The notes beneath the pieces were generated by a model, which did no database searches, had not been told where the DNA came from, and saw only the letters and a program-made list of their open reading frames with translations. Shown in pieces: positions 3,231 through 58,438 of a stretch of 64,000 nucleotides of DNA; the stretch's first letter is position 1, and every line of letters begins with the position of its first letter. Location: positions 14,784,041-14,848,040 of the forward strand of contig CM026562.1 of NCBI GenBank assembly GCA_015143295.1, read 5' to 3'. The position numbers and the translations under genes were made by a program. The DNA is from Tetracentron sinense. Lineage: Eukaryota > Streptophyta > Magnoliopsida > Trochodendrales > Trochodendraceae.

Positions 3231-3826
3231 CTTCTTGCTACCCTCCTAGTTATAGATCCTTCTTTTACTTTATTTCTCCTTGTTTTCTTTCAATTACACA
3301 TGTGCTATGAGATGGATGGGTGTGAATGGTGAATGGAGACAGAATTGGCGATTGGATGCTGTGTGAAATGATGTGATGAATGAAATGGGAAGGGCATTGT
3401 CGCGCCCCAAAATATCCCCTAGGAGTTAAGGGATACTTTAGAGGTGACTACGTGTACCTGTCAAACCATCTGTAATGCAAGAGGCTAAACATAATATAAT
3501 ACAATGATAATCAGAGCGGGGAAACTAAACATAAGTGCGGAAGCATAAGCCAACTTTTTCTTTTCTTCTATTACTCCATATAGTATTCCAAGTTAACATA
3601 TACTAAATACAATCAAAGTAAAGGTGGACATGCCCACCTATCAAAATACAAAAAGGAACTCTCTAACCCTCTCCTCTCAACAGTAGTCGAGGTACGGCCA
3701 CACATCCAAGTCCCCATCCTCCTGAGACTGCCATGGGATAGGTGGCTCCCTCTCCTCTACATACTCCTCCTCGACCCAAGGCTCAGGGTCGAGGACATCC
3801 ACAGTACCTGCTGACATAAAAGTACG

Positions 3827-3847
3827 GCTGAGCATGGAATACTCAGC
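3827..3847 (-). repeat. Conserved 21-bp LTR hairpin (B 3' LTR copy)
   Basis: GCTGAG and CTCAGC arms (6 bp) around a 9-nt loop. The same or a near-identical block is found in all ten Tekay-type LTRs of the window: 11244, 13941, 19757, 22235, 24861, 32254, 42853, 60039 and 61608 besides this one. It is always followed in sense by CCGTAC-like and TATGTCGGCAGGT-like sequence. Confidence 0.8.
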
Positions 3848-4089
3848 GAGTACAAACTACTAGCTAACCATAACAATAGCGAAAGCATAACAACAGTGAG
3901 CAATACAAGATATTAATTTAAAGCAATAGTGAAAGCATAAGATACATAGCCATATCTTGACATGCGTGTATGAATGCAAAAACCTCGGTAAAACTCATGT
4001 CTCGGAAACCTTTTTCGTGTCTCGGTCAATCATGTATGTGTCGTGTCTTGTCTTGTATTTCATGTCTTGATTTGTTCTTGACTTGTATA

Positions 4090-4297
4090 CTTGTGAGCCA
4101 GAGGCTAGCACCCTTCCTTGGGCTACCAACCTCCTTGTCATGTTCTTGTTCCATTTCTCTTGTGAGCCAGAGGCTAGCACCCTTCCTTGGGCTACCAACC
4201 TCCTTGTCATGTTCTTGTTCCATTTCACTTGTGAGCCAGAGGCTAGTAGTACCCTTCACCTGGGCTACCAACCTCCTTATCATGTTCCATTTTCTTG
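4090..4297 (-). repeat. 69-bp minisatellite, 3 units (B 3' LTR)
   Basis: Units start at 4090, 4159 and 4228. Each has GAGCCAGAGGCTAG, a GGGCTACCAACCTCCTTG block and a T-rich spacer. Read in sense it is the same unit as the 68-bp repeat in A' LTRs, which confirms that B and A' are sister families. ORFs crossing it are artefacts of the repeat. Confidence 0.92.
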
Positions 4298-5272
4298 TTT
4301 GCTTTATTATGCACAATTACTCTTGGAAAACCCAATTCATGCATGCATGCGTGCTTGTGTGCTTGTCAATAGTGGTAATCATGATGACATACTTGGATGG
4401 GCGGATCACATGAATATGGCATTTCAATCCCTAACATAGTGGTATGAAAATTTAGGCAACATATAACACATTTGAGCAATTTATCATTCCTAAGAAAATT
4501 TACACAATTTCTATTTCCATTTTCTTCATTAAGTCCATTTATCCCTTGTTTAGTCATTTTATCAAACACACGGTGGGCCACATTTCTTAGTCCTTCCATT
4601 TCCCTTATTCAGTGCGTATTTTTCATCAAGACATCAAGGTACATTCGTTATTTGTAAAGTGCCCATCTTCCATTTTCCATTTCACACATCACACAACATC
4701 CATACGGCATCTAATCGCCTCAATCGACATCCCATCCACACATCCATACCTTTTTCTAATCTTGTTTATATTTAGTGGAGATGATACATTTTATAAGGAA
4801 GAAAACATACTACCAAGAGTCACATTTCACAATAGAAAATCTAGACTATTGCTAAGGGAAGTTAGTAGGGTGTACTAACCTTAGATCAAGGCTTGATGTT
4901 GAAGAAACCTTGAAATAAAAGCTCTATTTGGAAGGAGGAAGCCTTTGCTTGAAGGGGACTTGAGTTGGGGAAGAAACCCTTTTCAAAAACATCGTAGGAT
5001 CGCTGCCCTAGCTTGGAGAATGAGTCCCCACACGAGCTTGAGCCTTGAACTTGAAGCAACTCGAGTTGGGATGAGCTAGGGTTCTTAAACCCCTTTGATT
5101 CCTTCTCCAATGGAAAACCCTAGTTGCAAATCCCCTTCTCCTTTCTCTCTTTCTCTCAAAATCCCTTAAGTGCTGTGAATGAAACCCTAAAGGCTCGAGC
5201 AAGCCTTAAGGAGAAAGGGTTTAACCCCCAAAAGATGAAAAAGCCCTTAATGAAAATTCTGAAAAACACGAT

Positions 5273-5453
5273 GACCGAGCGATCGGTGGTTATGACCGAT
5301 CGATCGGTTGCCTACCGATTGATCGGTGTTATTGACCGGTCAAAAACTCACTCTCTGGAAAATTTTCCCATACAAAATTTCTGACCGTGCGATAGCTACC
5401 GATCGATCGGTTTTGGACCGATCGATCGCTCCATGGATCGAGCGATCGGTGTT
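5273..5453. repeat. Palindrome cluster in B 3' LTR
   Basis: ACCGATCGATCGGT-type palindromes and GAGCGATCGGT variants. Compared with the other LTR of the same element (12693-12821), this copy has two extra segments of about 32 and 19 bp. Each is bounded by palindrome units, consistent with deletion between repeats in the other LTR. Confidence 0.88.
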
Positions 5454-5661
5454 CTACTGGTCCCGACTGTTTTGGCCATATCTTTTGACTCGCTCGTCCG
5501 ATTTCGACGATTCAACTTGCATTGGATTCGTCTCTCGAAAACGCACATTTCTGATGTTTTAGAATTTCCGATTTCTCCCTTATTTATTAATTACACTACG
5601 AAACGGCCAATTAGCTACGAGAGTGCCATTCATTAAAGATGAAAAAGTCCGGGGTGCTACA

Positions 5662-5675
5662 TTCTCCCCCCCTTA
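5662..5675 (-). promoter_or_regulatory. B polypurine tract
   Basis: Read on minus, AAGGGGGGGAGAA lies directly before the TGTAGCACC start of the 3' LTR. This is the expected primer site for plus-strand DNA synthesis. The same tract precedes the A' 3' LTR. Confidence 0.9.
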
Positions 5676-5771
5676 CAAAAATTTCATCCTCGAAATTTGG
5701 ACAATGCGTGCTTTACAATTTAAACAACTTAGCATAACAATTCGAAACAAAATTACAAGTCATACACAAAA

Positions 5772-8700
5772 TCATTCAAACAACTCGGGGTACTTCGCCT
5801 TGACTTCGGCCTCACGTTCCCATGTAGCCTCTTCTAGAGCGTGATGTTGCCATTGCACGAGAACTAGCGGAATAGTCTTGTTGCGAAGTACTTGGTCTCT
5901 TCGATCCAAAATATGAACCGGCTTCTCAACCAAAGTGAGATCCTCTCGAATCTCAACCGGATCAAGCTCGATGACGTGAGAAGGATCCGGGATGTACTTC
6001 CGAAGCTGGGAGATATGAAACACGTTGTGGACCGCCGCCATGTGAACGGGCAAAGCAACACGGTAAGCAACTTCACCGACTCGAGTAATGATCTCGAATG
6101 GACCCACATATCTCGGGCTAAGCTTGCCTCTTTTCCCGAATCGCATAACACCCTTGGTCGGCAAAATCTTGATAAACACAAAGTCACCGACTCGGAATTC
6201 AAGATCCCTCCTTCGGTTGTCGGCATAGCTTTTCTGTCTGTCCTGTGCGGTCTTCAACCTCTCCCGTATAAGCTTGACCCTATCCGCGGTTCGTTCAATC
6301 AACTCGGGGCCCAAAATCTTTCTTTCTCCAACCTCATCCCAATACAAGGGGGATCTACAACTTCTTCCATATAAGGCTTCAAAAGGTGCCATTTGTATGC
6401 TTGCTTGATAACTTTTATTGTAGGCGAATTCCACCAAAGGTAGGTGATCCTTCCAACTTCCTTTAAAATCCAACATACAAGCTCGGAGCATATCTTCTAT
6501 CACTTGATTCACCCTCTCTGTTTGCCCGTCGGTCTGTGGGTGGAAAGCTGTGCTAAAGTCTAACCGGGAGCCCATTGCACCTTGAAAGCTTTTCCAGAAC
6601 CTGGATGTGAATCTTGGGTCTCTATCCGACACAATACTCACTGGCACCCCATGCAATCGGACTATTTCCTTGATGTATAGCTCCGCTAACTGATTGGAGT
6701 TGAATGTAGTCCGGTACGGTAAGAAATGAGCGGACTTCGTGAGTCTATCAATAACTACCCAGATAGCATCGGTCTTCTTGACCGTCTTCGGCAATCCCAC
6801 GATAAAGTCCATAGAGATATGTTCCCATTTCCACTCGGGAATAGGGAGAGACTGCAAAAGACCCGCCGGTCTCAAATGCTCCGCTTTCACCTGTTGGCAC
6901 ACCAAACACCGTGCCACATACTCCGCAACCTCCCTCTTCATGTTTCGCCACCAAAAGTGACTCTTGAGGTTCCGGTACATCTTCGTACCCCCGGGATGCA
7001 CTGTGTACTTTGAACGGTGAGCTTCATCCATGATCTCTCTTCGAAGGTCTGCATTGGCTGGGACACAAAGTCTTCCCTTGAATGTAATAGCACCCCGGCT
7101 ATTGAGAGAGAAGTCCGTACTACCCTTGGCAATTTCCTTGTCCCGAAAAGCCAACAAGTCAGCATCCGTGGCCTGGTACTCCTGGATCAAATCTATAAGG
7201 TACGGCCGAACCGTAACATTTGCCAAAACAGGACTACGGACAGAATCATTCACACTAATGTCCAGATTTGCCAAATCGTCTAACAGTTTCCATTCCCGCA
7301 CCAACATGTGAGCCAACAACCCCGATGGTTTCCTACTCAAAGCGTCTGCCACCACATTTGCTTTTCCCGGGTGATATTGGATCGTGCACTCATAGTCTTT
7401 TAAGAACTCAATCCAACACCGTTGTCGCAAATTGAGCTCTTTTTGGGAAAAGAGATATTTGAGGCTCTTGTGGTCCGTGTACACATAGAACTCCACCCCG
7501 TACAGATAATGTCGCCAAATTTTGAGTGCAAACACGACCGCCGCAAGCTCCAAGTCGTGAGTGGGGTAGTTCTTTTCATGCTCTTTCAACTGCCTTGATG
7601 CATAGGCAATGACTTTCTTGTGTTGCATTAGGACACACCCGAGTCCGACGTGCGAGGCATCACTATACACCTCATACCCAAAAGGTCCAGATGGCACAGT
7701 AAGGACAGGGGCTGTGGTGAGGCGTTTCTTCAACTCTTGGAAACTTACTTCACATTGGTCACTCCAACTGAACTTTGCACTTTTTCTTGTCAAGTAGGTG
7801 AGAGGTGCAGCCAAACTGGAGAATCCCTCCACAAATCTCCGGTAGTAGCCTGCCAATCCGAGGAAACTACGTATCTTCGTGACACTCTTGGGCCTCTCCC
7901 AACTCATGACTGCCTCAACCTTGGCTGGATCTACAGAAATACCCTCGACCGACACCACGTGTCCAAGAAATGCGACCTTCTCTAGCCAGAACTCGCACTT
8001 ACTCAATTTGGAATATAGCCTATGCTCTCTCAACATCTCCAGAGCAAGGCGGAGGTCTCGTGCGTGATCTTCCCGTGTCTAGGAATACACCAAAATGTCA
8101 TCAATGAATGCAATCACGCATTGATCCAAGTAAGATCGGAATACCCGGTTCATCAAATCCATGAATGCCGCCGGTGCATTCGTCAGCCCAAAAGGCATGA
8201 CAAGGAACTCGTAATGCCCATACCGAGTCCTGAAAGCCGTCTTCTGAACATCTTCCGCCTTGATCCTTAATTGGTGATACCCCGATCTAAGATCAATTTT
8301 GGAGAAGAATCTCGCTCCCTTCAGTTGGTCAAACAAGTCGTCTATCCTTGGCAAGGGATAACAATTCTTGATAGTTACCTTGTTCAACTGACGGTAGTCT
8401 ATACACATCCTCATAGACCCGTCCTTCTTCTTCACAAAGAGAACCGGAGCTCCCCACGGCGAGACACTTGGTTGGATGAAACCAAGTTGTTGTAACTCCT
8501 CAATCTGTTTCTTTAATTCTTCAAGCTCTATAGGGGCCATTCTATATGGTGCCCTTGAAATCGGAGCGGTACCCGGAGCAAGCTCTATAGCGAATTCGAT
8601 CTCTCTATCAGGAGGTAATCCGGGAAGTTCTTCCGGGAACATATCTAAGAACTCACTCACAACTGGAATAGCCGATGAGTTTTGTGCTTCTGGGTGTGCT

Positions 8701-9103
8701 ATACTCAAGGCTATGAGGCGAGCAATGTCCCTCTCTCTTAATCCTCGGAAGTGAAAAGGCTTACCCCCTTCCGGCTTGAAATTCACCGTCTTTTCAAAAC
8801 ACGCAACATGCCCGTGATGGTTGGCCAACCAATCCATACCAAGAATGACGTCAAAGTCTAAATCTTGGAAATCCAAAATGATAAGATCGGCCACTAGTTC
8901 ATTCTCCCCTACTTGAACCACACAATCTCTGAATATCTTGTTCGTGTCAACTGACTTACTGAGTGGAGTTGCAATGGTCAACTCCCGCTCTAATGGAATA
9001 GCCTTAGTCAAAAATCCCTTCGCGAAACTAGGTGACACAAAGGAGTGAGTGGATCCTGTGTCGATCAACACTCGGGCGAGACACTCGTTCACTAATAAAG
9101 CGC
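5772..9103 (-). pseudogene. pol: B pol: PR-RT-RNaseH-INT-chromodomain polyprotein (one stop)
   Basis: Minus-strand polyprotein of about 1,100 residues. In order: protease with [10 protein letters not shown] (near 9060); RT with an [11 protein letters not shown] block, DLRSGYHQ and a FIDDILVYS catalytic box (near 8105); RNase H with [12 protein letters not shown] and [10 protein letters not shown]; integrase with an H-H-C-C zinc region ([11 protein letters not shown]) and D,D,E core residues ([25 protein letters not shown]); the [18 protein letters not shown] segment; and a C-terminal chromodomain ([13 protein letters not shown]) ending in YPELFE. One in-frame stop at 8079-8081, just after the RT catalytic box, is the only break. 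The first codon is completed by splicing from gag. Chromodomains of this family are thought to direct insertion into heterochromatin. Confidence 0.95.
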
Positions 9104-9239
9104 CTGTGCGATTAAGTAGCTACTATTAGTAGATTTCAAACAACAACAAGCATCATACATAGGTAACCCTTAGTATAAATAATCACATAATAAACCATAG
9201 AAATTTACACAACTTAGACTCTAGAATTTTTTTGCGTAC
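9104..9239 (-). other. Putative 136-bp intron between B gag and pol
   Basis: On the minus strand GTACGCAAAA follows CAAG at 9240, and CGCACAG ends at 9104 before GCGCTTTA. Unspliced, gag runs into a stop at 9216-9214. The pol frame has its own stop inside this segment (near 9123), so no single ribosomal frameshift could join the two. Splicing in phase 1 joins them as [15 protein letters not shown], matching the uninterrupted gag-pol join of related elements. A' carries a segment of exactly the same length at the same place. The segment is AT-rich, as plant introns are. Confidence 0.75.
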
Positions 9240-10476
9240 CTTGCACGACATCGTCGGATGCACGTGCGTCTCTCTCCGATAGGGCGAAGACTCGGCCCTG
9301 AGTGGCTGGGCGAGGAGGCCGGGTAGACTGTGAGGCCCTCGAAGCCTGAGAAGAGCTAGGCTGAGATGTCTGCCTAGTCGGGGGCCTGCTCCCCGAAGAC
9401 TGAGCTGGCAATTGACGTCGGGGACAATCCCGAATCATGTGGCCCTGGTCGCCACAATGAAAACAGCCTCCTGTAGCCTTCCGACATTCCCCTACTGGAT
9501 GCCTCCTTCCACAAAGGGTGCAGACATCATGTGAATAAGTGGGAGGAGTATAACCCGTAGCCTGAGTCACTGCGGGGCGAGAAGCATACGAGGTAGCCGG
9601 GCGAAAAGCCGGTGGAGCAAAAGGGCGGGGGGCCTGTGGTGCCGAGTACATCCTCTGTGACTGAGCAGGCCCTGCGGACTGATAAGACATAGTCCTAGCT
9701 CTCTTCTCCCCTGAACTACTAGACTGTCCCTTCTCTATTCCTCTTCTCTTAAAGAACTCTTCGGAATTCGACTCGGCCAACAATGCCTTGTCCACAACTT
9801 CTGAATATGTCTCATGTCGGAACATTGAGACACGATCCTTGAGGTAGGCCTTCAACCCCCTCTCGAATTTTTGGGCCTTCATAGCCTCGGTAGCTATCAT
9901 GTGTGGAGCAAATCGAGATAGCTCTGAGAACTTGGCTTCGTAAGCCGCTACAGACATATTACCTTGCTCCAAGGTAATAAATTCAATTTCTTTCTTTTCT
10001 TTCATCCCAACCGGAAAGTACTTCTTGTAGAAAACGTCCAAGAATTCTCCCCATGTCCGTTCTTGGCCTTGCCGGGTCAACTCTCGGGTCCGAAGTGCAG
10101 ACTTCCACCAATGGTCGGCCTCGCCTTCAAGCATAAAGGCAGCCCATGTGACCCTCTCTACTTCCGTAGATGCCAATACCGAGAATATCTTCTCAAGTTA
10201 CCGGATCCAACCCTCGGCAACAAGTGGATTAATGCTTCCACAAAAAGTTGGAGGCCTCATCCTCCGAAAAGCTTCTATCCCGGCTTGGGCTCGGTTAGGA
10301 GGAGCAGGTATTAGTGCCGCATTAGGCGGAGTGGTCGGTTGCCTTGCCGCCAACATAGCCAAAGTCTCGGCTATGGATGCGAATGCTTGGGCAAAGTCGG
10401 GTTGATCATCACCCAATGGAGCATCGCCTCCATTACCCCTCGTGTTGTACCCGCGACCCCGGGTATTGCGTCTCAT
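9214..10476 (-). pseudogene. gag: B gag (one stop)
   Basis: Gag capsid-nucleocapsid precursor, minus strand. The ATG at 10476 gives MRRNTRGRGYNTRGNG, 9 nt after a TTCTCAG acceptor-like site. A capsid region follows (FRRMRPPTF, then AAFMLEGEADHWWKSA, then FLDVFYKKYFPVGMKEKKE, a classic Retrotrans_gag pattern), then a Ser/Pro/Arg-rich stretch and one CCHC knuckle (CFHCGDQGHMIRDC). The stop at 10198-10200 falls inside the capsid. The last codons before the unspliced stop lie in the putative intron. Role: forms the virus-like particle and binds element RNA. Confidence 0.92.
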
Positions 10477-10797
10477 GATTTCTCCTGAGAACGACAATAC
10501 AACATGAGTCTAACTTGGATACACATTTAGTACAAATTTCGCAATTCTCTCAATACATATTCATCAAGCATACTTAATAAGCACAACACAATTTATGCAC
10601 ATATGGTATAGAACTCAACATCGTCCATATAACCCGTGTTCCTAGCGTAGGACTCTAAGTTTGGTTGAGATTCAACCTATTTTGACTAGGACTAACTTGT
10701 TAGTCCATGCTTGGAATACAACTCGTTAAGGTAATTCTAATACCTAGTTCAATCATGGTATCATTCTTATGTGACCCTAGGGACTCTAATGCCTAGA
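10477..10797 (-). other. B untranslated leader
   Basis: Between the primer site and the gag ATG, about 320 nt without an ORF. On minus it ends in GTCGTTCTCAG, an acceptor-like site at 10485, shared with A'. Confidence 0.6.
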
Positions 10798-10809
10798 GCT
10801 CTGATACCA
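10798..10809 (-). promoter_or_regulatory. B primer binding site (tRNA-iMet)
   Basis: Read on minus, TGGTATCAGAGC lies 4 nt inside the 5' LTR end. It is complementary to the 3' end of plant initiator-Met tRNA, the usual primer for Tekay and many copia elements. Confidence 0.93.
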
Positions 10810-10813
10810 CCTC

Positions 10814-13030
10814 TGTCGCGCCCCAAAATACCCCCTAGGAGTTAAGGGATACTTTAGAGGTGACTACGTGTACCTGTCAAACCATCCTGTAATGCAAGAG
10901 GCTAAACATAATATAATACAATGATAATCAGAGCGCGGAAACTAAACATAAGTGCGGAAGCATAAGCCAACTTTTTCTTTTCTTCTATTACTCCATATAG
11001 TATTCCAAGTTAACATATACTAAATACAATCAAAGTAAAGGTGGACATGCCCACCTATCAAAATACAAAAAGGAACTCTCTAACTCTCTCCTCTCAACAG
11101 TAGTCGAGGTACGGCCACACATCCAAGTCCCCATCCTCCTGAGACTGCCATGGGATAGGTGGCTCCCTCTCCTCTACATACTCCTCCTCGACCCAAGGCT
11201 CAGGGTCGAGGACATCCACAGTACCTGCCGACATAAAAGTACGATTGAGCATGAAATACTCAGCGAGTACAAACTACTAGCTAACCATAACAATAGCGAA
11301 AGCATAACAACAGTGAGCAATACAAGATATTAATTTAAAGCAATAGTGAAAGCATAAGATACATAGCCATATCTTGACATGCGTGTATGAATGCAAAAAC
11401 CTCGGTAAAACTCATGTCTCGGAAACCTTTTTCGTGTCTCGGTCAAATCATGTATGTGTGTCGTGTCTTGTCTTGTATTTCATGTCTTGATTTCTTCTTG
11501 ACTTGTATACTTGTGAGCCAGAGGCTAGCACCCTTCCTTGGGCTACCAACCTCCTTGTCATGTTCTTGTTCCATTTCTCTTGTGAGCCAGAGGCTAGCAC
11601 CCTTCCTTGGGCTACCAACCTCCTTGTCATGTTCTTGTTCCATTTCACTTGTGAGCCAGAGGCTAGTAGTACCCTTCACCTGGGCTACCAACCTCCTTGT
11701 CATGTTCCATTTTCTTGTTTGCTTTATTATGCACAATTACTCTTGGAAAACCCAATTCATGCATGCATGCGTGCTTGTGTGCTTGTCAATAGTGGTAATC
11801 ATGATGACATACTTGGATGGGCGGATCACATGAATATGGCATTTCAATCCCTAACATAGTGGTATGAAAATTTAGGCAACATATAACACATTTGAGCAAT
11901 TTATCATTCCTAAGAAAATTTACACAATTTCTATTTCCATTTTCTTCATTAAGTCCATTTATCCCTTGTTTAGTCATTTTATCAAACACACGGTGGGCCA
12001 CATTTCTTAGTCCTTCCATTTCCCTTATTTAGTGCGTATTTTTCATCAAGACATCAAGGTACATTCGTTATTTGTAAAGTGCCCATCTTCCATTTTCCAT
12101 TCCACACATCACACAACATCCATACGGCATCTAATCGCCTCAATCGACATCCCATCCACACATCCATACCTTTTTCTTATCTTGTTTATATTTAGTGGAG
12201 ATGATACATTTTATAAGGAAGAAAACATACTACCAAGAGTCACATTTCACAATAGAAAATCTAAACTATTGCTAAGGGAAGTTAGTAGGGTGTGCTAACC
12301 TTAGATCAAGGCTTGATGTTGAAGAAACCTTGAAATAAAAGCTCTATTTGGAAGGAGGAAGCATTTGCTTGAAGGGGACTTGAGTTGGGGAAGAAACCCT
12401 TTTCAAAAACGTCGTAGGATCGTTGCCCTAGCTTGGAGAATGAGTACCCACACGAGCTTGAGCCTTGAACTTGAAGCAACTCGAGTTGGGGTGAGCTAGG
12501 GTTCTTAAACCCCTTTGATTCCTTCTCCAATGGAAAACCCTAGTTGCAAATCCCCTTCTCCTTTCTCTCTATCTCTCAAAATCCCTTAAGTGCTATGAAT
12601 GAAGCCCTAAAGGCTCGAGCAAGCCTTAAGGAGAAAGGGTTTAACCCCCAAAAGATAAATTAGCCCTTAATGAAAATTCTGAAAAACACGAAGACCGAGC
12701 GATCGGTGGTTATGACCGATCGACCGGTCAAAAACTCACTCTTTGGAAAATTTCCCCATACAAAATTTCTGACCGTGCGATAGCTACCGATCGATCGCTC
12801 CATGGACCGAGCGATCGGTGTTCTGCTGGTCCCGACTGTTTTGGCCATATCTTTTGACTCGCTCGTCCGATTTCGACGATTCAACTTGCGTTGGATTCGT
12901 CTCTCGAAAATGCACATTTCTGACATTTTAGAATTTCTGATTTCTCCCTTATTTATTAATTACACTACGAAACGGCCAATTAGCTACGAGAGTGCCATTC
13001 ATTAAAGGTGAAAAAGTCCGAGGTGCTACA
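10814..13030 (-). repeat. B 5' LTR (right end)
   Basis: 2217 bp, nearly identical to the left LTR. The main differences are two deletions in the palindrome cluster (12693-12821) and a few substitutions. Minisatellite units start at 11510, 11579 and 11648; the hairpin is at 11244 with one arm mutated; the donor-like site is at 12299. Confidence 0.95.
12693..12821. repeat. Palindrome cluster in B 5' LTR (contracted)
   Basis: Same motif set as the left LTR but shorter. One junction reads CCGATCGACCGGT and another joins ACCGATCGATCG straight to CTCC, as expected if recombination between palindromes removed the intervening units. Confidence 0.88.
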
Positions 13031-13452
13031 GGCATTGTATCCATAATGAACAAACACGTATGATGTGAGCATAACCCACCTAGAAAAGCATGTTGTAGGG
13101 TTAATAAATAATGAATGCACCATGTTTGATGAAATGCCAAGGTGAATGAAATGAATGATAAATTAAGAGATTGCATGTTTAAGGTTTATGGAAATTGCTA
13201 GGGTCATGATAGTGTGATTATTCGCTTTCCCTAAATGATGTGAATATTACATTGCTCAATCATTGATGTTACATGTGTTGTGAATTACCCAAATTTCATA
13301 TTTAAATTTAAGTGCAAGTATGCACACGATTCCCACGAGCACGGCATGCATGACATGATTTACCGAGGTTTTCAAGAACATGGTTAGAGGTGGGACATAT
13401 CCTACGATATGTTTTACCTCACTTTTCACAAGAAAACAAGAACCAACATTCC

Positions 13453-22920: not shown

Positions 22921-23252
22921 TAGTATGCTTAGAAACCTTAGAAATCTAACATTATAATTTCCATACAAGTAATAGCTTACAATCCATGAGAATTCATCCA
23001 AGAATAGCATCATAGAAAACCTGGTTTAACTTACAAGAATTGTTGCACCCCGGACTTTTCCATCTCTAAATGAATAAGTATATCGTAGTTGAATGGCCTT
23101 CCGCGTGGTCTAATTAATAAATAGGGGAGAAATTTGAAATTCCAAAATTTCAGAAATGTGCGTTTTCGAGAGACGAATCCAACGCAAGTTGAGTCGTCGA
23201 AATCGGACGAACGAGTCAAAAGATATGGCCAAAACAGTCGGGACCTACAGAG

Positions 23253-23438
23253 CACCGATCGCTCGGTCCAGTCAGCGATCAATCGGTCCAAAACCGATCA
23301 ATCGGTAGCTATCGCACGGTCAAAACTTTTGTATGGGGAAATTTTCCAAGAGTGAGTTTTTGACCGATCGATCGGTCAATAATACCGATCGCTCGGTAGG
23401 CAACCGATCGATCGGTCATAACCACCGATTGCTCGGTC
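23253..23438. repeat. Palindrome cluster in A' 5' LTR
   Basis: At least seven ACCGATCGATCGGT or ACCGATCGCTCGGT units in two sub-clusters flanking the TTGTATGGGGAAATTTTCCA block. The 3' LTR copy is at 30679-30864. Confidence 0.88.
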
Positions 23439-24280
23439 TTCGCGTTTTTGCAGAAATTTCAGTAAGGACGTTTTCGTCGCTTGGGTGTTAAACCCTTACC
23501 CATAAGGGTTTGCTCGACCCTTTGAGCCCTCATTCACAACCCTTAGACATTTTGAGAGCTAGAGAGTGAGAAGAAGAGGGTTTTGACCTAGGGTTTCCAT
23601 TGAGGAAGAAATCAAAGGGGTGGACCATCCTAGGTCGTCCTCAAACTTGTATTTGCTTCAAGTTCAAGGCTTGGATTCTCCAAATCCAACCTCAAGCTCG
23701 TGTGGAGTACCTCTTCCAAGCTAGGGCAGCGTTTCTACATCATCCTCAAGGATTTCTCTTTCCCTTTTCAAGGTTAGTACACTCTTCCTAGTTACTTTGG
23801 TAATAACCTAGGATTTTCCTAAGTAAATATGTGTTAGATCTTCCCCATTGCTCTCTTGTGTTGGTATATGCTAAATCCCTAAAACATAAACAAGGTAATA
23901 CAAACAAAGGGCAGAATGTATGAATGGATGAGGAGTGGAGGCGATTGGATGCCATGTTGTGATGTATTGAATGATGGAAAAATGATGGAAGGGCATATTA
24001 CGCATAATGAACACACCCCAAGTGTTTGATGAAATGTTCGAATGAGAAAATATGAAATAACTAAAGGTAAAAAGGTTGAATACCACATGTTTGATAGGAT
24101 GCATGAATAAACTAAGATTTGAAAGCATGAGTCACATAAATGTTCCCCATTTGGCAAGTTGTATGCATGTGTTTATTTCGCTTCTTAAATTCTCATGTGA
24201 GTTGGAAATTGTTAAAATGCTATATGTCATCATGATTTCACGATTGCTATGCATGTGCACATATGTAAATGGAGGATATT

Positions 24281-24680
24281 GTCAAGGAGGTTGGTAGCCC
24301 AGGGATGTGCGGGTGCTAACCCCTGGCTCATAAGTAAGGTATTGTACTGTCAAGGGGGTTGGTAGCCCAGGGATGTGCGGGTGCTAGCCTCTGGCTCATA
24401 AGTAAGGTATTGTACTGTCAAGGGGGGTGGTAGCCCAGGGATGTGCAGGTGCTAACCCCTGGCTCATAAGAAGTGTATTGTACTGTCAAGGAGGCTGGTA
24501 GCCCAGGGATGTGCGGGTGCTAGCCTCTGGCTCATAAGAAGTGTATTGTACTGTCAAGGGGGTTGGTAGCCCAGGGATGTGCGGGTGCTAACCCCTGGCT
24601 CATAAGAAAGGTATTGTACTGTCAAGGAGGTTGGTAGCCCAGGGATATGCGGGTGCTAACATCTGGCTCATAAGAAATAT
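24281..24680 (+). repeat. 68-bp minisatellite, 6 units (A' 5' LTR)
   Basis: Units start at 24281, 24349, 24417, 24485, 24553 and 24621, each with GTCAAGGGGGTTGGTAGCCC, GGGATGTGCGGGTGCTA and CCCTGGCTCATAAG. AGCCCAGGG and CCCCTGGCT can form a bulged stem in each unit. The 3' LTR copy (31707-32068) has lost one unit. Confidence 0.95.
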
Positions 24681-25332
24681 TGAAAGGACAACTCAAAGAG
24701 GAATTGTATGATGCATAGACATGTTTTAGTTTCATAATAATTATGACTTGATAAAATGTTTATGTATGAGGTTGCTAGAAATGATTATGAACTATACTCC
24801 TCCCATTACTTGTATATGATGTTGTTCGTTATTACCATTGTTAGTTAGAGGCTTGTACTCGCTGAGTATTCCATGCTCAGCCGTACTTTCATGTCGGCAG
24901 GTACCCGAGTCCCTCTCGACATTTGTGATCCGGGTCCTTGGATAGAGGAGGACTATGGCGAGGAGGAACCTTATGAGGATCTAGTAGTCGAGCCTCAGGC
25001 GGAGGCGAGAGACTTAGACCATTGTTCCCACGGGGGTGACTATTGAGCGAGACAGAGTTGTATTTTGTCTTTTGTATTTTGTTAGGTGGGCCTGTCCACC
25101 TTAGGCTTAGACGTGTTGTACATATGTTAAAATTGGAATACTGTTTTGGGACTTTAGAAAAAAAAAAGAGTTGGTTGCGCTTCCGCATTTTTATGTTTAG
25201 CTTCCGCGCTCTGATTATCATTGTATTAGTATTATATTTTGTCTTGTTCATTTCAGGATGGTTTGGCAGGTTTGTATGGTCCACCTAAAGTATCCCTAAA
25301 CTCCTAGGGAGTATTTTGGGGCGTGACAGAGG

Positions 25333-25344
25333 TGGTATCAGAGC
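25333..25344 (+). promoter_or_regulatory. A' primer binding site (tRNA-iMet)
   Basis: TGGTATCAGAGC lies 4 nt downstream of the 5' LTR end, complementary to the initiator-Met tRNA 3' end. Confidence 0.95.
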
Positions 25345-25670
25345 CTAGGCGTTAGAGTCCTTAGGGTCACTAGAACTGATACTATGATTGAACAAGGTCT
25401 TAGGCCACTAAGAGGAGTCGTATTCCAAGTATAGACTAATAACTTAGTCTTAGTCCATAACCGGTTGGAAAGCCAAACCGCACTTAGTAACCTACGCTAG
25501 AACACGAACGTATGCTTGTTGTTGCTGTGTATACCTTGAATGAATTGTCATATGCTCAATAAATGATAGGGATGCTAAAATTGTTATTAAATATTGTGCA
25601 ATTATTGAATTGTTGCTAAACATGTATCCAAGTTAGACTCATGTGGTACTGTCGTTCTCAGGATCACATC
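25345..25670 (+). other. A' untranslated leader
   Basis: About 330 nt without an ORF. GTCGTTCTCAG ends at 25661, the same acceptor-like site as in B, 9 nt before the gag start position. Confidence 0.6.
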
Positions 25671-26924
25671 TTGAGACGCGATGCTTGGGGTCGCGGATAC
25701 AATACGAGGGGAAATGGAAGTGATGCCCCTTCCGGTGACGAGCAACCTGATTTTGCCCAAGCTTTTGCATCTATAGCCGAGACTTTGGCTATGTTAGCAG
25801 CAAGGCCGGTTGCTGTTACTCCTTCTACACCTCCGCCACCTCCGGCACACCATGCTTCAGGATTGGAGGCATTTAGGAGATTACGTCCTCCTACCTTTTT
25901 TGGTACTACTGACCCCATGGTCGCCGAGGCATGGGTGATGCAATTGGAAAAGATTTTTAGAGCGCTCCACTGCACGGATGAACAGAGAGTGGACTGGGCC
26001 ACCTTCGTGATGGAAGGTGCGGCCGAGCATTGGTGGAGAGCCGCACAGAGACAGAGGGAGTCCACCAGGGCGGGGGAGCCGTGGACATGGCCAGAATTTT
26101 TGGATGTCTTCTATAAGCAGTATTTTCCAGCAGCTGTCAAAGAACAGAAGGAGATTGAATTCATGACTCTTGAACAAGGAGAGTTGAGTGTGGCCGATTA
26201 TGAGGCTACCTTCGTGGAGTTATCGAGATTCGTACCTCACCTAATTGCATCACAGCATATGCGAGTCAGGAAATTTGAGCGGGGATTGAAACCCTCCATT
26301 AGAGACAAGGTCTCGATGTTCCAGGTGGCTACCTGGGGAGAGGTTGTGAGCAAGGCGAAACTTGCAGAGAAGAATTCGGAAGAATTCTTCAAGAGAAGGG
26401 ATATGACTCGAGGCCAGTCGAGTAGTTCGGGGTCGGCAGAGAAGAGGGTTAGGACAGCCCCATATCAGGCATCCAGGCTGATACGGTCACAGAGGCCTCC
26501 CTTGACATCACAGGTATCTCGGCCTACCACTACACCGGTACCTCGTCCCACACTTTCACAGGCCACCCGATATGTTCCACCTTCATCCTCATCAGCATTT
26601 GAGGAGTGCTCCTATTGTGGTCGGAGTCACCGGATTGGTGAATGTCAAAGGATTTCGGGTGGGTGCTTTCACTGTGGAGATGTGAATCACATGGTCAGGG
26701 ATTGCCCACACAGGTAGCTGCAGCCTATCCAACCCCAGGGGAGTAGGCCCCCAGTTCGACAGGATTCCCATCCGGGATCCTCACAGGCTTCTGCGTCTAG
26801 GCCTTCACGACCCACACCGTCCACTCCACCGCCTCGTAGGGCAAACCAGGGTCAGGTTTTTGCCTTATCGGAACAGGATGCACGTGCATCTGACGATGTC
26901 ATGCAAGGTACGCTATCATGCTAA
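25671..26924 (+). pseudogene. gag: A' gag (start changed, one stop)
   Basis: The position of the B start codon is TTG here (25671); the only in-frame ATG is upstream at 25641, inside the leader. The protein runs LRRDAWGRGYNTRGNG, capsid region with FVMEGAAEHWWRAA and FLDVFYKQYFPAAVKEQKE, then a basic and Pro-rich linker and one CCHC knuckle ([14 protein letters not shown]). A stop at 26715-26717, right after the knuckle, breaks it. The frame then continues to VMQ and, if unspliced, to a stop at 26922-26924 inside the putative intron. Confidence 0.92.
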
Positions 26925-27043
26925 AGTTTCGAGTTGTAATTGGCTGTTATTATGTAATGTGATTGCTTATATGTATGACATGCTACCTATACTTATGTGT
27001 TATTGCGTGAAATCTATTAACGTGAATTTAATTAATCACACAG
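26908..27043 (+). other. Putative 136-bp intron between A' gag and pol
   Basis: CAAG|GTACGCTATC at the left and AATCACACAG|GCGCGTTA at the right. Removal joins VMQ to [12 protein letters not shown] in phase 1. The length is identical to the B segment while the interior sequence differs. T/A-rich with a CTATTAAC branch-point-like motif 25-30 nt from the 3' end. In this copy the pol frame happens to be open through the segment, which is why a long ORF can be drawn from 26860. Confidence 0.75.
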
Positions 27044-30000
27044 GCGCGTTATTAGTGAATGAATGCCTAGCCCGAGTGTTGATCGACACAGGATCCACTC
27101 ATTCCTTTGTATCGCCTAGCTTTGCGAAAGGATTTCCAACCAAGTCCAGTCAGTTGAAGCATGAATTAACCATCTCCACACCGCTCGGCAAGTCAGTGGA
27201 CACGGACCATATATACAGGGACTGTGTAGTCCAAGTGGGACAGAATGAGTTGTTAGCCGACCTCATCATCCTGGACTTCCAAGACTTAGATTTCGATGTC
27301 ATACTTGGTATGGATTGGCTATCGGCTCACCACGGACATGTGGCATGTTTCGAGAAGATGGTGAACTTTGAGCTGATGGGAGTTAAGCCATTTCACTTTC
27401 GAGGGTTGAGGGAAAGAGACATTGCTCGCCTCACAGCTTTGAGCTTAGCAAACCCAGAAGCACAGAACTCCTCGGTCATTCCGGTCGTGAGTGAGTTCTT
27501 GGATGTGTTTCCGGAGGAACTTCTCGGATTGCCTCCGGATCGGGAGATTGAGTTCGCTATAGAGCTTACTCCAGGCACTGCTCCGATTTCAAGGGCACCA
27601 TATAGAATGGCCCCAATAGAGCTTGAGGAATTAAAGAAGCAAATTGAGGAGTTACAACAACTTGGTTTCATCCAACCAAGTGTGTCACCATGGGGAGCTC
27701 CGGTCCTCTTTGTGAAAAAGAAAGACAGGTCAATGAGAATGTGCATAGATTACCAGCAGTTGAACAAGATAACTATTAAGAATCGTTATCCTTTGCCTCG
27801 GATAGACGACTTGTTTGACCAACTGAAGGGAGCGAGATTTTTCTCTAAGATTGATCTTAGATCAGGGTATCATCAGTTAAAGATCAAGGCGGCAGATGTT
27901 CCGAAGTCGGCTTTCAGGACTCGGTATGGGCACTACGAGTTCCTTGTCATGCCTTTTGGACTAACGAATGCACCGGCGGCGTTCATGGATTTGATGAACC
28001 GGGTGTTCCGATCGTACTTGGATCGATGTGTGATTGTGTTCATAGATGACATTTTGGTGTATTCCCAGACATGGGAAGATTATGCACGAGACCTTCGTCT
28101 TGCTCTGGAGATGTTGAGAGAGCACAGACTATACGCTAAGTTAAGCAAGTGCGAATTTTGGTTGGAGAAGGTGGCGTTCCTAGGCCACGTAGTGTCGGCT
28201 GAGGGCATTTCTGTTGACCTGGCAAAGATAGAGGCAGTTATGAGATGGGAGAGACCCAAGAGCGTCACGGAGATACGTAGTTTTCTCGGGCTGGCAGGCT
28301 ACTATCGGAGATTTGTGGAGGGATTCTCCAGTTTGGCTGCACCTCTCACTTACTTGACGAGGAAGAATGCCAAGTTTAGTTGGAGCGACAAATGCGAAGT
28401 GAGTTTTCAGGAGTTGAAGAAACGCCTCACCACGGCCCCCGTCTTTACTGTGCCATCCGGGAGTGGTGGTTTTGTGGTTTACAGTGATGCCTCGCATGTG
28501 GGGTTGGGATGTGTACTTATGCAGCACGGCAAAGTCATCGCTTACGCGTCTAGGCAATTGAAAGAGCATGAGAAGAATTATCCCACTCACGATTTAGAGC
28601 TCGCCGCAGTTGTGTTTGCCTTGAAGATTTGGCGACATTATCTCTATGGGGAACAGTTCGACGTATTCACGGATCATAAAAGCTTGAAGTACCTGTTCTC
28701 CCAAAAGGAATTGAATTTAAGGCAGAGGAGATGGGTAGAGTTTTTGAAAGACTACGAATGTTCCATTCAATATCATCCGGGCAAGGCGAACGTTGTAGCC
28801 GATGCTCTTAGCCGGAAGCCCACTGGACTTTTGGCGCACATGATGCTGAGGGAATGGAGATTGTTAGAAGATGCATCCAACCTCGACATCAGTTTTAGTC
28901 TCCCTACTTTTGGGCCAGTAATGGCTAACATCACAGTTAGGCCATATATCCTAAGCATGACCAGGGAGTTGCAGGGAATGGATGCTGAGCTACTGTCTTA
29001 CCGAGACCAGTCAGTTAAAAGTGGCAGCAAGGATTTTGCGGTGAGGGATGATGGAATTATCACTTTCAAGGGAAGAGTATGTGTCCCAGCCGATGAGAAG
29101 CTTAAGCGAGAAAATTTGTACGAGGCTCACCGGTCCAAGTACACCGTTCACCCCGGGGGTACCAAGATGTATAGGGACTTGAAGAAGCACTTTTGGTGGC
29201 GGAACATGAAGCGAGAAATAGCAGAGTACGTGTCCCGATGCTTGGTGTGCCAACAAGTCAAGGCCGAGCACAGGAGACCGGCGGGTCTGTTACAGTCTCT
29301 CCCTATTCCCGAGTGGAAATGGGAACATATCTCTATGGACTTCATCGTGGGGTTGCCAAAGACAGTTAAAAAGACTGATGCGATATGGGTTGTGGTTGAC
29401 AAACTCACGAAGTCCGCCCATTTCTTACCGTACCGGACTACATTCAACTCAAATCAGTTAGCGGCCTTGTACATCAAAGAGATAGTCCGATTGCACGGAG
29501 TGCCAGTGAGCATTGTCTCAGACCGGGATCCAAGGTTCACATCCAGGTTTTGGAGAAGTTTTCAGGATGCCATGGGTTCCCGACTAGACTTTAGCACGGC
29601 CTTCCATCCACAGACGGATGGGCAAACCGAGCGAGTGAATCAGATTATTGAAGACATGCTCCGTGCATGTATGCTAGACTTCAAGGGAAGTTGGGAGGAT
29701 CCCTACCTTTGGTGGAATTCACCTACAACAATAGTTACCAGGCAAGCATACAGATGGCACCCTTTGAGGCTTTGTACGGAAGGAGTTGTAGATCTCCGTT
29801 GTATTGGGATGAAGTGGGAGAAAGAAAAATTTTGGGCCCCGAGTTGATTGAACAAACTGCGGATAGAGTTAAGCTCATCCAGGAAAGGTTGAAGACCGCA
29901 CAAGACCGACAGAAAAGCTATGCCGACAACCGAATGAGGGATCTTGAATATCGAGTTAGTGACTTTGTTTTTGTTAAGATTTCACCAACCAAGGGAGTTA

Positions 30001-30374
30001 TGAGATTCGGGAAAAGAGGAAAGCTTAGCTCGAGATATGTGGGTCCATTCGAGATCATTACTCAAGTTGGTGAGGTAGCTTACCGAGTTGCCTTGCCCGC
30101 TCACATGGTGGCGATCCACAACGTATTTCACATCTCCATGCTTCGAAAGTATATCCTGGATCCTTCTCATGTTATCGAGCTTGATCCGATAGAGATCCGA
30201 GAGGACCTCACCCTAGTTGAACAACCGGTGCAGATCTTGGATAGGCGAGATCAAGTCTTGCGCAACAAGACCGTTCCCTTGGTCTTGGTAAGATGGCAAC
30301 ACCATTCAAGGGAGGAAGCTACTTGGGAACGAGAAGCCGAAGTACGAGAAAAGTACCCTCATTTATTTGTTTAA
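27044..30374 (+). pseudogene. pol: A' pol: PR-RT-RNaseH-INT-chromodomain (one frameshift)
   Basis: Protease [10 protein letters not shown] (Asp codon at 27085); RT with DLRSGYHQ and FIDDILVYS (near 28040); RNase H with [12 protein letters not shown] and [18 protein letters not shown]; integrase zinc region ([22 protein letters not shown]), core residues in [15 protein letters not shown] and [10 protein letters not shown]; and a chromodomain near 30215-30370 (LRNKTVPLVLVRW..EEATWE). A one-base loss near 29700, after FKGSWED, shifts the frame inside integrase; the remainder is open to 30374. Otherwise intact. Close in sequence to B pol. Confidence 0.95.
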
Positions 30375-30452
30375 GGCCTTGACATTCCCTTGTATTTTGT
30401 TATAGTTTTACGCATGTATGTATCGTCCAAATTTCGGGGACGAAATTTTTGT

Positions 30453-30465
30453 AAGGGGGGGAGAA
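30453..30465 (+). promoter_or_regulatory. A' polypurine tract
   Basis: AAGGGGGGGAGAA directly before the 3' LTR, the plus-strand primer site. Confidence 0.93.
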
Positions 30466-32707
30466 TGTAGCACCCCGGACTTTTCCATCTTTAAATGAAT
30501 AAGTATTTCGTAGTTGAATGGCCTTCCGCGTGGTCTAATTAATAAATAGCGGAGAAATTTGAAATTCCGAAACATCAGAAATATGCGTTTTCGAGAGACG
30601 AATCCAACGCAAGTTGAATCGTCGAAATCGGACGAACGAGTCAAAAGATATGGCCAAAACAGTCGGGACCTACAGAGCACCGATCGCTCGGTCCAGTCAG
30701 TGATCGATCGGTCCAAAACCGATCGATCAGTAGCTATCGCACGGTCAAAACTTTTGTATGGGGAAATTTTCCAGAGAGTGAGTTTTTGACCGATCGATTG
30801 GTCAATAACACCGATCGCTCGGTAGGCAACCGATCGATCGGTCATAACCACCGATCGCTCGGTCTTCGCGTTTTTGCAGAAATTTCAGTAAGGATGTTTT
30901 CGTCTTTTGGGTGTTAAACCCTTACCCATAAGGGTTTGCTCGACCCTTTGAGCCCTCATTCACAACCCTTAGACATTTTGAGAGCTAGAGAGTGAGAAGA
31001 AGAGGGTTTTGACCTAGGGTTTCCATTGAGGAAGAAATCAAAGGGGTGGACCATCCTAGGTCATCCTCAAACTTGGATTTGCTTCAAGTTCAAGGCTTGG
31101 ATTCTCCAAATCCAACCTCAAGCTCGTGTGGAGTACCTCTTCCAAGCTAGGGCAGCGTTTCTACATCATCCTCAAGGATTTCTCTTTCCCTTTTCAAGGT
31201 TAGTACACTCTTCCTAGTTACTTTGGTAATAACCTAGGATTTTCCTAAGTAAATATGTGTTAGATCTTCCTCATTGCTCTCTTGTGTTGGTCTATGCTAA
31301 ATCCCTAAAACATAAACAAGGTAATACAAACAAAGGGCGGAATGTATGAATGGATGAGGAGTGGAGGCGATTGGATGTCATGTTGTGATGTATTGAATGA
31401 TGGAAAAATGATGGAAGGGCATATTACGCATAATGAACACACCCCAAGTGTTTGATGAAATGTTCGAATGAGAAAATATGAAATAACTAAAGATAAAAAG
31501 GTTGAATACCACATGTTTGATAGGATGCATGAATAAACTAAGATTTGAAAGCATGAGTCACATAAATGTTCCCCATTTGGCAAGTTGTATGCATGTGTTT
31601 ATTTCGCTTCTTAAATTCTCATGTGAGTTGGAAATTGTTAAAATGCTATATGTCATCATGATTTCACGATTGCTATGCACGTGCACATATGTAAATGGAG
31701 GATATTGTCAAGGAGGTTGGTAGCCCAGGGATGTGCGGGTGCTAACCCCTGGCTCATAAGTAAGGTATTGTACTGTCAAGGGGGTTGGTAGCCCAGGGAT
31801 GTGCGGGTGCTAGCCTCTGGCTCATAAGTAAGGTATTGTAGGTGCTAACCCCTGGCTCATAAGAAGTGTATTGTACTGTCAAGGAGGCTGGTAGCCCAGG
31901 GATGTGCGGGTGCTAGCCTCTGGCTCATAAGAAGTGTATTGTACTGTCAAGGGGGTTGGTAGCCCAGGGATGTGCGGGTGCTAACCCCTGGCTCATAAGA
32001 AAGGTATTGTACTGTCAAGGAGGTTGGTAGCCCAGGGATATGCGGGTGCTAACCTCTGGCTCATAAGAAATATTGAAAGGACAACTCAAAGAGGAATTGT
32101 ATGATGCATAGACATGTTTTAGTTTCATAATAATTATGACTTGATAAAATGTTTATGTATGAGGTTGCTAGAAATGATTATGAACTATACTCCTCCCATT
32201 ACTTGTATATGATGTTGTTCGTTATTACCATTGTTAGTTAAGGGCTTGTACTCGCTGAGTATTCCATGCTCAGCCGTACTTTCATGTCGGCAGGTACCCG
32301 AGTCCCTCTCGACATTTGTGATCCGGGTCCTTGGATAGAGGAGGACTATGGCGAGGAGGAACCTTATGAGGATCTAGTAGTCGAGCCTCAGGCGGAGGCG
32401 AGAGACTTAGACCATTGTCCCCACGGGGGTGACTATTGAGCGAGACAGAGTTGTATTTTGTTAGGTGGGCCTATCCACCTTAGGCTTAGACGTGTTGTAC
32501 ATATGTTAAAATTGGAATACTGTTTTGGGACTTTAGAAAAAAAAAAGAGTTGGTTGCGCTTCCGCATTTTTATGTTTAGCTTCCGCGCTCTGATTATCAT
32601 TGTATTAGTATTATATTTTGTCTTGTTCATTTCAGGATGGTTTGGCAGGTTTGTATGGTCCACCTAAAGTATCCCTAAACTCCTAGGGGGTATTTTGGGG
32701 CGTGACA
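30466..32707 (+). repeat. A' 3' LTR
   Basis: 2242 bp; near-identical to the 5' LTR. It lacks part of one minisatellite unit and a 14-bp segment flanked by ATTTTGT repeats near 32455. Palindromes at 30679-30864, donor-like site at 31199, hairpin at 32254. Confidence 0.95.
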
Positions 32708-33050
32708 AGAATCATGGTAGTTAGTTAGTAGAGTGTAGTTACCTTTTAGAAGAACCTAAAACTTCGAAAAGAACTCCTTGAAAGCAAGGTTCAAGTTTGG
32801 AAATCCTCCAAGTATGAGAAGGAAACACCTTCTTGTTGAGAAATCAACTCAAAAACAAGTCCTCCAAGCTTTCCTTCCTTCTTCTCCTTCCTCTCCTTCT
32901 TTCTCTTTAACTTTCACCCAAAAATTTCTTCTTAGGGTTCTAAGAACTCTAGACCACGAAATGGCCTTATATATGCATTAAGGGTGAGGCCAAAGACCCT
33001 TGCACCCCTAAAATATCCTAAGAGGGTGGCTATAAGGCAAAACAGACACC

Positions 33051-39183: not shown

Positions 39184-41068
39184 ATGAATCTCCAAAGAGA
39201 GGGAGGATCCATCTCTTGTCCCCCATTATTTGATGGGAATAATTATGCCTATTAGAAAGCTCGAATGAGAGCGTTTCTAAAATCATTAGATGAGAGAGTA
39301 TGGATCTCCATTGAACAAGGTTGGACTCATCCAACAAAGACCATAGATGACCAGACCATCCCTAAACCTTCTTCTGAATGGACCAATGTAGATCTTGAAA
39401 GTTGTAGATGGAACAGTAAGGGTCTAAATGCAATCTTCGTTGCTGTCACACTTGATGAATTTTGACGTATTTCTAAATGTGACACTTCGAAAGAGGCATG
39501 GGATATTCTTCAAATTACCCATGAAGGGACTACAACTGTCAAGATCTCTAAACTTCAAATGCTTATCTCTAAGTTTGAAAAGTTGATGATGGATGATAAT
39601 GAAACTTTTGACAATTTTTATGCTAATCTAAGTGACATTGTCAATTCTAGTTTCAATCTTGGGGAAAGAATTCCTGAGTCCAAAATTGTTAGAAAAATTT
39701 TGAAATCTCTACCTGAGAGACTTCGATCAAAGGTCACCGCTATCGAAGAGAGCAAAAATATTGATGCTCTTAAAATTGAAGAGTTGGTTGGTTCTCTCCA
39801 AACCTATGAGTTAAATCTGAACCCATCTAAGAAACCAAAATCTATTGCCTTGAAATCTATCAAGGAAACCATAGATGTTTCAGATAATGACTCTAAGGAT
39901 GATGAAGAAGAGTTGACTTTATTTATAAAGAAATTCAGAAAATTTCTGAAATTTAATAAGAGATTTAATCCGAAAGGACAAAAATCTTTTGATAAGTCAA
40001 AGTCCAAGCATTTTGAAAATAAGAAACATCTTAAAAGTGCTGACAAAAAATCCCAAGGTGTTCAATGCTATGAATGCCAATGCTATGGCCATATTGCCGC
40101 TGAGTGCTCTAATAAGAAAAGATTTAAAGGTAAGGCAAGGCATGACAGTGAATCTGAATCTGAGGAATCAGATAGTTCTTCTTGTCAGAAGACTAGGGGT
40201 TAGTTATATGACCTTCACTGCATCTTTATCTAGGGTTGAAGAATCTTCTTCAAATGTTGTGAGTGACAAACACTATAGTGATGGTGAGGATGATGAGAGT
40301 CAAAATGACTCAGATTCTGAGGGAGACCTCGAGGCAACCTATGATGAGCTATTTCAGGAATTCCTAAAGCTGAAAAAGGTTCAGTTTTCCATATCCAAAA
40401 AGATCAAATCTATTGAAATGGAAAAAGATGCCTTAGACCAAGTGGCTTCAGGGTTAAGAGCTCTTATGTCACAGCTTGAGGAAGAGAAGGTTTCCCTCCT
40501 TGTCAAGACTCAACTTCTTGAATCTGATTTGTATGTTTGTCTTGATGAAAAACCAAGTCTTGAAATCAAGTTGGCTGATCTTGAGCAAAATCAGAGGTAT
40601 GGAGATGTGAATGGAACTTCACCTACCTCGAACACTGAGCCTGATGATAAAAGGCTCCCTCCTGAAAATAGGAAGGACCCTTCAACTTAGAAATTCATTC
40701 TTACATGTCATAAATGTGGAGTGAATGGTCATATTAAGCCTCGATGTCCTAAACTTCGAAGAATGCCTAATCATGGTTTTAAGAACCAAAATAATCTTAA
40801 TGGGAATCTTCAAATGAGAGTTGAGGTCCTAGTGGAGAAGTCTAGGAGTTTGTGTGTAGATGTGATGAAAATTGCTCACAACTCTAGACCACATGGTCAT
40901 GACACTCCTTATACTAGATATAAAGGTGGTAACGGGGAAAACCATAATGTCCGCCATAATTTTAGGACTCAATCCTGAAAAAGGAGGAATAGGAGGAAGA
41001 GGCAAAAGGTCATACCTACCTCAACTGAAACAATTAGAGACCAAAGGGTCAATCAAACTGCTAAAACC
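39184..41068 (+). pseudogene. gag: F gag (SIRE-type, broken)
   Basis: The ATG at 39184 begins MNLQREGGSISCPPLFDGNN, the usual start of SIRE Gag. Stops at 39253 and 39463 interrupt the N-terminal part. The central UBN2-type capsid region is open at 39559-40203 (SKFEKLMMDDNETFDNFYAN, KILKSLPERLRSKVTAIEES), followed by an acidic and Lys-rich segment and a CCHC knuckle (CYECQCYGHIAAEC). A one-base shift near 40200 moves the rest to the next frame: an acidic coiled-coil region, a stop at 40688, then a second knuckle (CHKCGVNGHIKPRC). The frame fades out before G; the few residues after G (VRKEDLKG) are its continuation. Confidence 0.88.
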
Positions 41069-41073
41069 GATTG

Positions 41074-43286: not shown

Positions 43287-43291
43287 GATTG

Positions 43292-58031: not shown

Positions 58032-58438
58032 AGCAGATTCTGAATTTGAGGGTTTTTAACCCTTGTCTTGTTAGAAGGTTCTCATTTAGGGCTTTTTTAA
58101 CCTAGAGGAGAGAAAGAGGGAAGAGAAAGGAGAAGAGGATTTTGGGAAATCCTCCAAAGTAGCTTGGATTTGGAGATCAAGGGAAGCTCATCTTGAAGAT
58201 TTTTAAGCAAACGACCTTCCTCAAGCATGTAGAGCCCCGAACTTTTGACATTTATGCATGACACTTTCGTTTCCATTTTTTCCTTTAAAGAGAAATAATT
58301 AATAAATAAGGAAGAAATTGGAAATTCCGAAACGCCAGAAATGTTCGTTTTTGAAGTACGAACCCAACGCAAGTTGAATCGTCAAAATCGGATGAACGAG
58401 TCAAAAGATATGGCCAAAACAGTCTGGACCTACAGGCA

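Follow-up and report, generated by a model that had tools for sequence, protein, structure and literature searches.

Plant LTR retrotransposons are generally without introns, Ogre and EVADE being notable exceptions (PMC12786077; here and below, PMC numbers stand for the portions of the papers at hand). Ogre, a Ty3/gypsy element of the Tat lineage, has two ORFs and an intron, which splicing removes from some transcripts and leaves in others, making a full polyprotein possible; the intron lies between GAG-PROT and RT, the gap between the ORFs averages 274 bp, and splicing has been shown (PMC6317226). Bianca (Ty1/copia) has two ORFs about 172 bp apart, with no splicing experiment given in the available portion of that paper (PMC6317226). 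In BARE1 (Ty1/copia), splicing near the end of gag removes 104 nt and shifts the balance of Gag to Pol, with unspliced RNA yielding Gag-Pol and spliced RNA Gag only, and the elements named as spliced are Bagy2, Ogre, CRR, and BARE1 (PMC3735527). Splicing in EVADE-like copia elements of Arabidopsis and sunflower yields RNAs for part of the proteins, the short spliced RNAs carrying gag (PMC12786077, PMC7730604); as far as its available text goes, the sunflower survey describes splicing in copia elements and no Tekay among the expressed elements (PMC7730604). In beet chromoviruses, a single ORF covers gag and pol (PMC3605345).

The window described here, meaning the whole 64-kb stretch of DNA that was analysed, holds two full-length copies, A' and B, of one Ty3/gypsy family in which a 136-bp candidate intron sits between gag and protease. 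This layout resembles Ogre in the two ORFs that an intron is proposed to part, and differs from it in position (before the protease), in length, and in that we infer splicing from the sequence. Ogre-type elements carry a second (archaeal-type) RNase H and no chromodomain, whereas A' and B do have a chromodomain, and the two RNase H models matched one overlapping region in them, giving no sign of a second such domain. The proposed strategy is Ogre-like, but the element is not an Ogre. Bianca shares the two-ORF layout but belongs to another superfamily, and the logic of BARE1 is the reverse of that proposed here. CRR is also a chromovirus, of the CRM clade, but splicing removes its RT. The single ORF of the beet chromoviruses likewise contrasts with the two frames of A' and B and the segment between them.

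In many plant chromoviruses, Gag and Pol are made as a single protein, which raises the question of how more Gag than Pol comes about. An intron whose retention separates Gag from Pol would be a directly testable answer for one lineage and, if true, would mean that the Ogre strategy arose twice, convergently, within Ty3/gypsy. It would also be a natural experiment on a paradox, as elements that are copied through RNA ought to lose their introns unless the spliced RNA is kept out of reverse transcription. In surveys based on ORFs, intact members of such families could be counted as frame-broken. The available portions of PMC9289625, PMC11963269, PMC2864245, PMC6696364, and PMC2533021 make no mention of a gag-pol intron in Tekay, and no report of one was found in the open-licence PMC literature, as far as its available text extends. 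Gag-pol introns are already known, from Ogre and at another position.

Structure of the two elements

Each copy has its own perfect 5-bp TSD, so A' and B are separate insertions. Their features are as follows.

23041..32707, plus strand: element A', TSD AGAAT at 23036-23040 and 32708-32712
23041..25328, plus strand: 5' LTR of A'
25333..25344, plus strand: primer-binding site of A', TGGTATCAGAGC, which we take to be of the tRNA-Met type
25620..26907, plus strand: gag of A' up to the donor, with an in-frame TAG at 26715-26717
26908..27043, plus strand: candidate intron of A', GTACGC...CACAG, 136 bp
27044..29847, plus strand: pol of A' (protease, RT, RNase H, integrase), the first two bases finishing a split Gly codon
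29652..30374, plus strand: SH3-like and chromodomain part of A', in a frame different from pol
30456-30465, plus strand: purine-rich tract before the 3' LTR of A'
30466..32707, plus strand: 3' LTR of A', sharing about 96.4% identity with the 5' LTR
3398..13030, minus strand: element B, TSD GGCAT at 3393-3397 and 13031-13035
10814-13030 and 3398-5661, minus strand: 5' and 3' LTRs of B
9240..10197, minus strand: open part of gag in B, as far as the donor
9104..9239, minus strand: candidate intron of B, 136 bp, borders as in A'
5772..9103, minus strand: pol of B from the acceptor, protease to chromodomain, with an in-frame stop at 8079-8081

The LTRs of both copies are 2.2-2.3 kb long, and those of B are 95.9% identical to each other. 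Pfam models identified gag (PF03732, CCHC), protease, RT, RNase H, integrase, and a terminal SH3-like and chromodomain part in A' and B; the chromodomain scored 25.7 bits in A' against a cut-off of 25.1, and 21.4 bits, under the cut-off, in B, while the integrase-core matches of both were under the Pfam cut-offs. Both copies are defective, A' through the TAG in gag and a chromodomain part out of the pol frame and B through the stop in pol. A 68-bp tandem repeat in the LTRs of A' (24240-24811, 31769-32204) is more extensive in the 5' than in the 3' LTR (five versus three reference windows), a copy-number change that arose since or during insertion.

The label Tekay, given in the initial annotation, is likely and not proven: the chromodomain after integrase, the domain order gag-PR-RT-RH-INT, and the primer-binding site speak for it, but the RT tree was built without CRM, Reina, and Galadriel references. 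Tekay/Del chromoviruses with a continuous gag-pol, such as Bongo of beet and Mtr58 of Medicago, share the domain order with A' and B, along with LTRs of about 2 kb and a tRNA-Met primer in Mtr58 (PMC2533021). One continuous gag-pol frame is the common, not strictly defining, state of Tekay/Del, and A' and B depart from it in having gag and pol in two frames with the segment between. Continuous Tekay/Del relatives carry the linker motif found on both sides of the A'/B junction. The tree, made from an RT piece of 92 sequences, paired A' with B at a support of 1.0, with neighbours beyond the pair unsupported; one of the relatives was del1-46 of Lilium, at 69% in RT.

The segment between gag and protease

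The segment borders read CAAG/GTACGC...CACAG/GCGC with a phase-1 join, as the initial annotation had described, and the segment of B has the same length at the homologous place. The description of its interior as different between the copies was too strong: the interiors are homologous, with 94 of 129 aligned positions identical and an alignment score of 112 against a maximum of 73 among 500 shuffles. This alignment requires indels on both sides, and the equal length is therefore a net result.

The gag frame runs from the split Gly into the segment as GTLSC in A' (four residues after the Gly) and as GTQKNSRV in B (seven residues after it, ending eight codons in), each followed by a stop. The gag-frame stop noted earlier at 26922 in A' is present but is not the first, and gag of this copy is already broken upstream of the segment by the TAG. 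The pol frame is closed inside the segment of B by five stops, as had been stated, and is open without a stop through that of A' (ORF 26686-29847); the chance of 45 open codons in one frame at the composition of the A' segment is about 3%. The open pol frame across the A' segment is not a family feature, as B shows.

Several features of the segments are those of plant introns. Their T content is 0.40 in both copies, against 0.23 and 0.26 in the 300-nt flanks of A' and 0.21 and 0.30 in those of B; plant introns are about 15% more U-rich than flanking exons (PMC3735527). The donor AAG/GTACGC fits seven of nine consensus letters. In B no other of the 21 GT sites fits as well; in A', with 22 GT sites, three others fit equally well and none better. 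A branch site is expected by consensus about 20-40 nt before the acceptor, and both copies have a candidate in that range.

27017..27021, plus strand: branch-like site TTAAC of A', branch A at -24, with more YTRAY matches at -13 and -9
9125..9129, minus strand: branch-like site CTAAT of B, branch A at -23, with another YTRAY match at -9

These sites at -24 and -23 fall within a block common to both copies, TGAAATCTAYTAAY; for so short a motif, the match is by itself weak evidence of a branch point. No distinct pyrimidine tract was seen before the acceptor: 5 and 6 of the 10 preceding bases were pyrimidines, and other AGs scanned equalled or exceeded this. A pyrimidine-rich tract is not required of every plant intron.

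A structured, self-splicing RNA was rejected, as neither segment folded unusually or more stably than its shuffles (z 0.18 and 0.97), and 136 nt is, to our knowledge, too short for group I or II introns. An origin by tandem duplication of the flanking exon was also unsupported, with 121 to 286 of 300 shuffles reaching or beating the alignments to the 150-nt flanks.

Restoration of the gag-protease linker

In plant relatives, the end of gag and the start of protease are continuous, with RVFALT-like residues followed by a Gly and, 14 residues on, the catalytic Asp (in the 70 alignments listed, out of 124). It is the codon of this Gly that the segment interrupts. Alternative joins, made by linking short flanking stretches at GT-AG pairs in and near the segment, were scored against a profile of 121 continuous relatives. 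GT sites were taken from the segment itself and the 200 nt upstream of the donor, AG sites as far as 120 nt downstream of the acceptor. The relatives comprised the best 120 of 683 proteins and 28 from another protein search (148 in total), of which 27 were left out of the profile because they covered too little sequence ahead of the junction or could not be usefully aligned; some of the 121 are gene models and may have been spliced in silico. The named relatives among the matches listed are plants.

Among 699 constructs in A', the proposed join came first with 85.1 bits, against 80.2 for the runner-up and 52.8 for the highest-scoring unspliced form; among 714 in B it again came first, with 87.5 bits against 83.3 and 48.8. 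Each total includes three unspliced controls. The lead of the proposed join over the runner-up was modest, at about 4-5 bits per copy, and fell at the homologous site in both. The distance from the Gly to the catalytic Asp was 14 in 109 of the 110 profile members with the pattern and 16 in one, and it is 14 in the joined forms of both A' and B.

Relatives with and without the segment

A third member of the family is represented by P0121, a 247-aa protein from a 942-bp ENA contig that was found with the gag query of B and is 60% identical. It ends in KVFALTEQDAHASDDVVQG followed by TSSQSFITAWY, so that gag stops 11 residues past the junction Gly; at the protein level, its Gly-Thr implies GGN-ACN, compatible with G/GTAC. 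This stop just past the junction indicates the segment in a third member, although it may have some other cause. A second gag protein, P0122, lies closer to A' (68%), but its sequence does not reach the linker.

The nearest continuous DNA read, L001 and L002, is 55% identical in protease-RT and crosses the junction without the segment. These near-identical contigs (L001:2187-3203 and L002:2821-3837) carry a Ty3/gypsy gag-pol in assemblies named Geminicoccus and Solirubrobacter, and are apparently eukaryotic contamination of bacterial assemblies. The DNA of these continuous relatives and the proteins of others are without the segment, in keeping with a probable gain of the intron in the A'/B lineage. 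The initial annotation had named one-frame relatives lacking the segment as something that would tell against its reading. This holds in part, as the relatives seen are indeed one-frame; the segment is present in both copies of the window and is indicated in P0121. No relative was found in the viral contigs scanned; among genome contigs, the family query returned no relative, and a wider alignment returned at least four loci, namely the continuous L001 and L002 and the distant L003 and L004. None of the 28 proteins listed in the other protein search is a close family member showing the junction. The top pol match, P0001, was set aside as a chimera with two protease copies.

Age of the segment and selection on pol

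As the segments of A' and B are homologous, the segment was present before the two copies split. Synonymous sites between them are near saturation, with pS of 0.69-0.93 in gag and 0.63 and 0.93 in the first two protease windows. Nonsynonymous divergence is low across the first 1,020 bases of pol (pN 0.02-0.10); beyond them, pN rises to 0.22 and 0.26 in two windows at 28789-29148 and to 0.44 in the last window, where the frame of A' is changed. The dN/dS was 0.04 in protease and 0.05 in a piece of RT; for gag, saturation gave no estimate, and pN was 0.25 in the capsid part. Pol was thus under purifying selection after the split and must have been translated despite the insert.

In RT, pS was only 0.29-0.45 at 27586-28065 and 28249-28428 (0.70 between them), against 0.5-1.07 elsewhere in pol; these dips look as if parts had been exchanged between subfamilies.

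Proposed expression strategy and alternatives

The explanation that we favour, and consider highly probable as a whole, is a U2-type spliceosomal intron of 136 bp that was acquired by an ancestor of A' and B, in a chromovirus probably of Tekay/Del. That there is an intron at these borders we regard as very likely: the borders, the T-richness, the branch-like site, the linker restored in two diverged copies, and the gag stop of P0121 all support the spliceosomal-type reading first put forward for this locus. The support comes from two DNA copies, both defective, and from P0121, known as a protein. Joining CAA-G to GC fuses gag with the protease-RT-RNase H-integrase frame. If the intron is spliced from part of the transcripts, the unspliced RNA would serve as Gag mRNA and genome and the spliced RNA as Gag-Pol mRNA, and more Gag than Gag-Pol would be made. 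This regulatory half, in which splicing sets the ratio, would follow from the frames only, and we lean towards partial splicing with such an effect. The ordinary intron marks of the segment suggest that the element relies on the plant splicing machinery to make its enzymes.

Because the intron persists in an element copied through RNA, it can be argued that unspliced RNA is the normal template, and spliced RNA would rarely found new copies, since the intron would otherwise have been lost. We incline, if only slightly, to the broader view that a chromovirus lineage independently evolved a weak gag/protease intron as a switch from Gag to Gag-Pol, kept by selection through a deep divergence, with spliced RNA barred from reverse transcription. 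A true intron that is nearly always spliced, or that serves RNA export or stability, with no role in the ratio of Gag to Gag-Pol, is rather unlikely: the sequence data carry no measure of the splicing ratio, yet near-complete splicing would soon strip the copied genome of its intron, and this one outlasted the deep split of A' and B. Very unlikely, too, is a plain insertion that broke gag-pol, in defective lines that other elements mobilize by supplying helper proteins. Both copies are now defective, but the insert predates their split, its removal restores the linker exactly, and helper-moved defective lines would not have kept pol conserved under strong purifying selection.

That the segment is kept in the RNA, with Gag and Pol joined by recoding (ribosomal frameshift, readthrough, or bypass), seems improbable in the extreme. 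The pol frame of A', open from 26686 through the segment, would let recoding serve this copy alone; it fails for B on the five pol-frame stops, the early end of the gag frame in B counts against it as well, and a 136-nt bypass with GT...AG borders would be extraordinary. The claim that a frameshift could not explain the arrangement accordingly holds for B and draws nothing from A'. Scarcely credible is independent translation of pol, whether from a start or from an RNA of its own. BARE2 offers a precedent, its pol being thought to be translated without gag via scanning or internal entry (PMC3735527). In both copies, however, pol has its first Met at residue 89, after the protease active site with the catalytic DTG at 14, so an internal ATG start fits poorly; a non-ATG start is possible.

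Pre-gag region and other repeats of the window

The ATG that would start gag in B is TTG in A' (25660-25680), and A' has an upstream in-frame ATG at 25641, only in that frame. About 40 bases before the gag start (25620-25662 in A' and the matching place in B), ending in TGTCGTTCTCAG/GA, are well conserved between the copies, whereas the 100 bases upstream of them are not. The end of this stretch resembles an acceptor, so the leader may hold a second intron, for which no donor common to A' and B was evident.

Other repeats of the window include another Ty3/gypsy-like element, with a gag ORF (PF03732) at 46722-47387 and a separate protease-RT ORF at 48116-50155. Repeats related to the LTRs of A' and B and their adjoining sequence, at 41070-43290 and 58227-62055, are without a gag-pol match and may be solo LTRs or remnants. 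The window also has, at 39466-40203, a fragment of a copia-type gag (PF14223).
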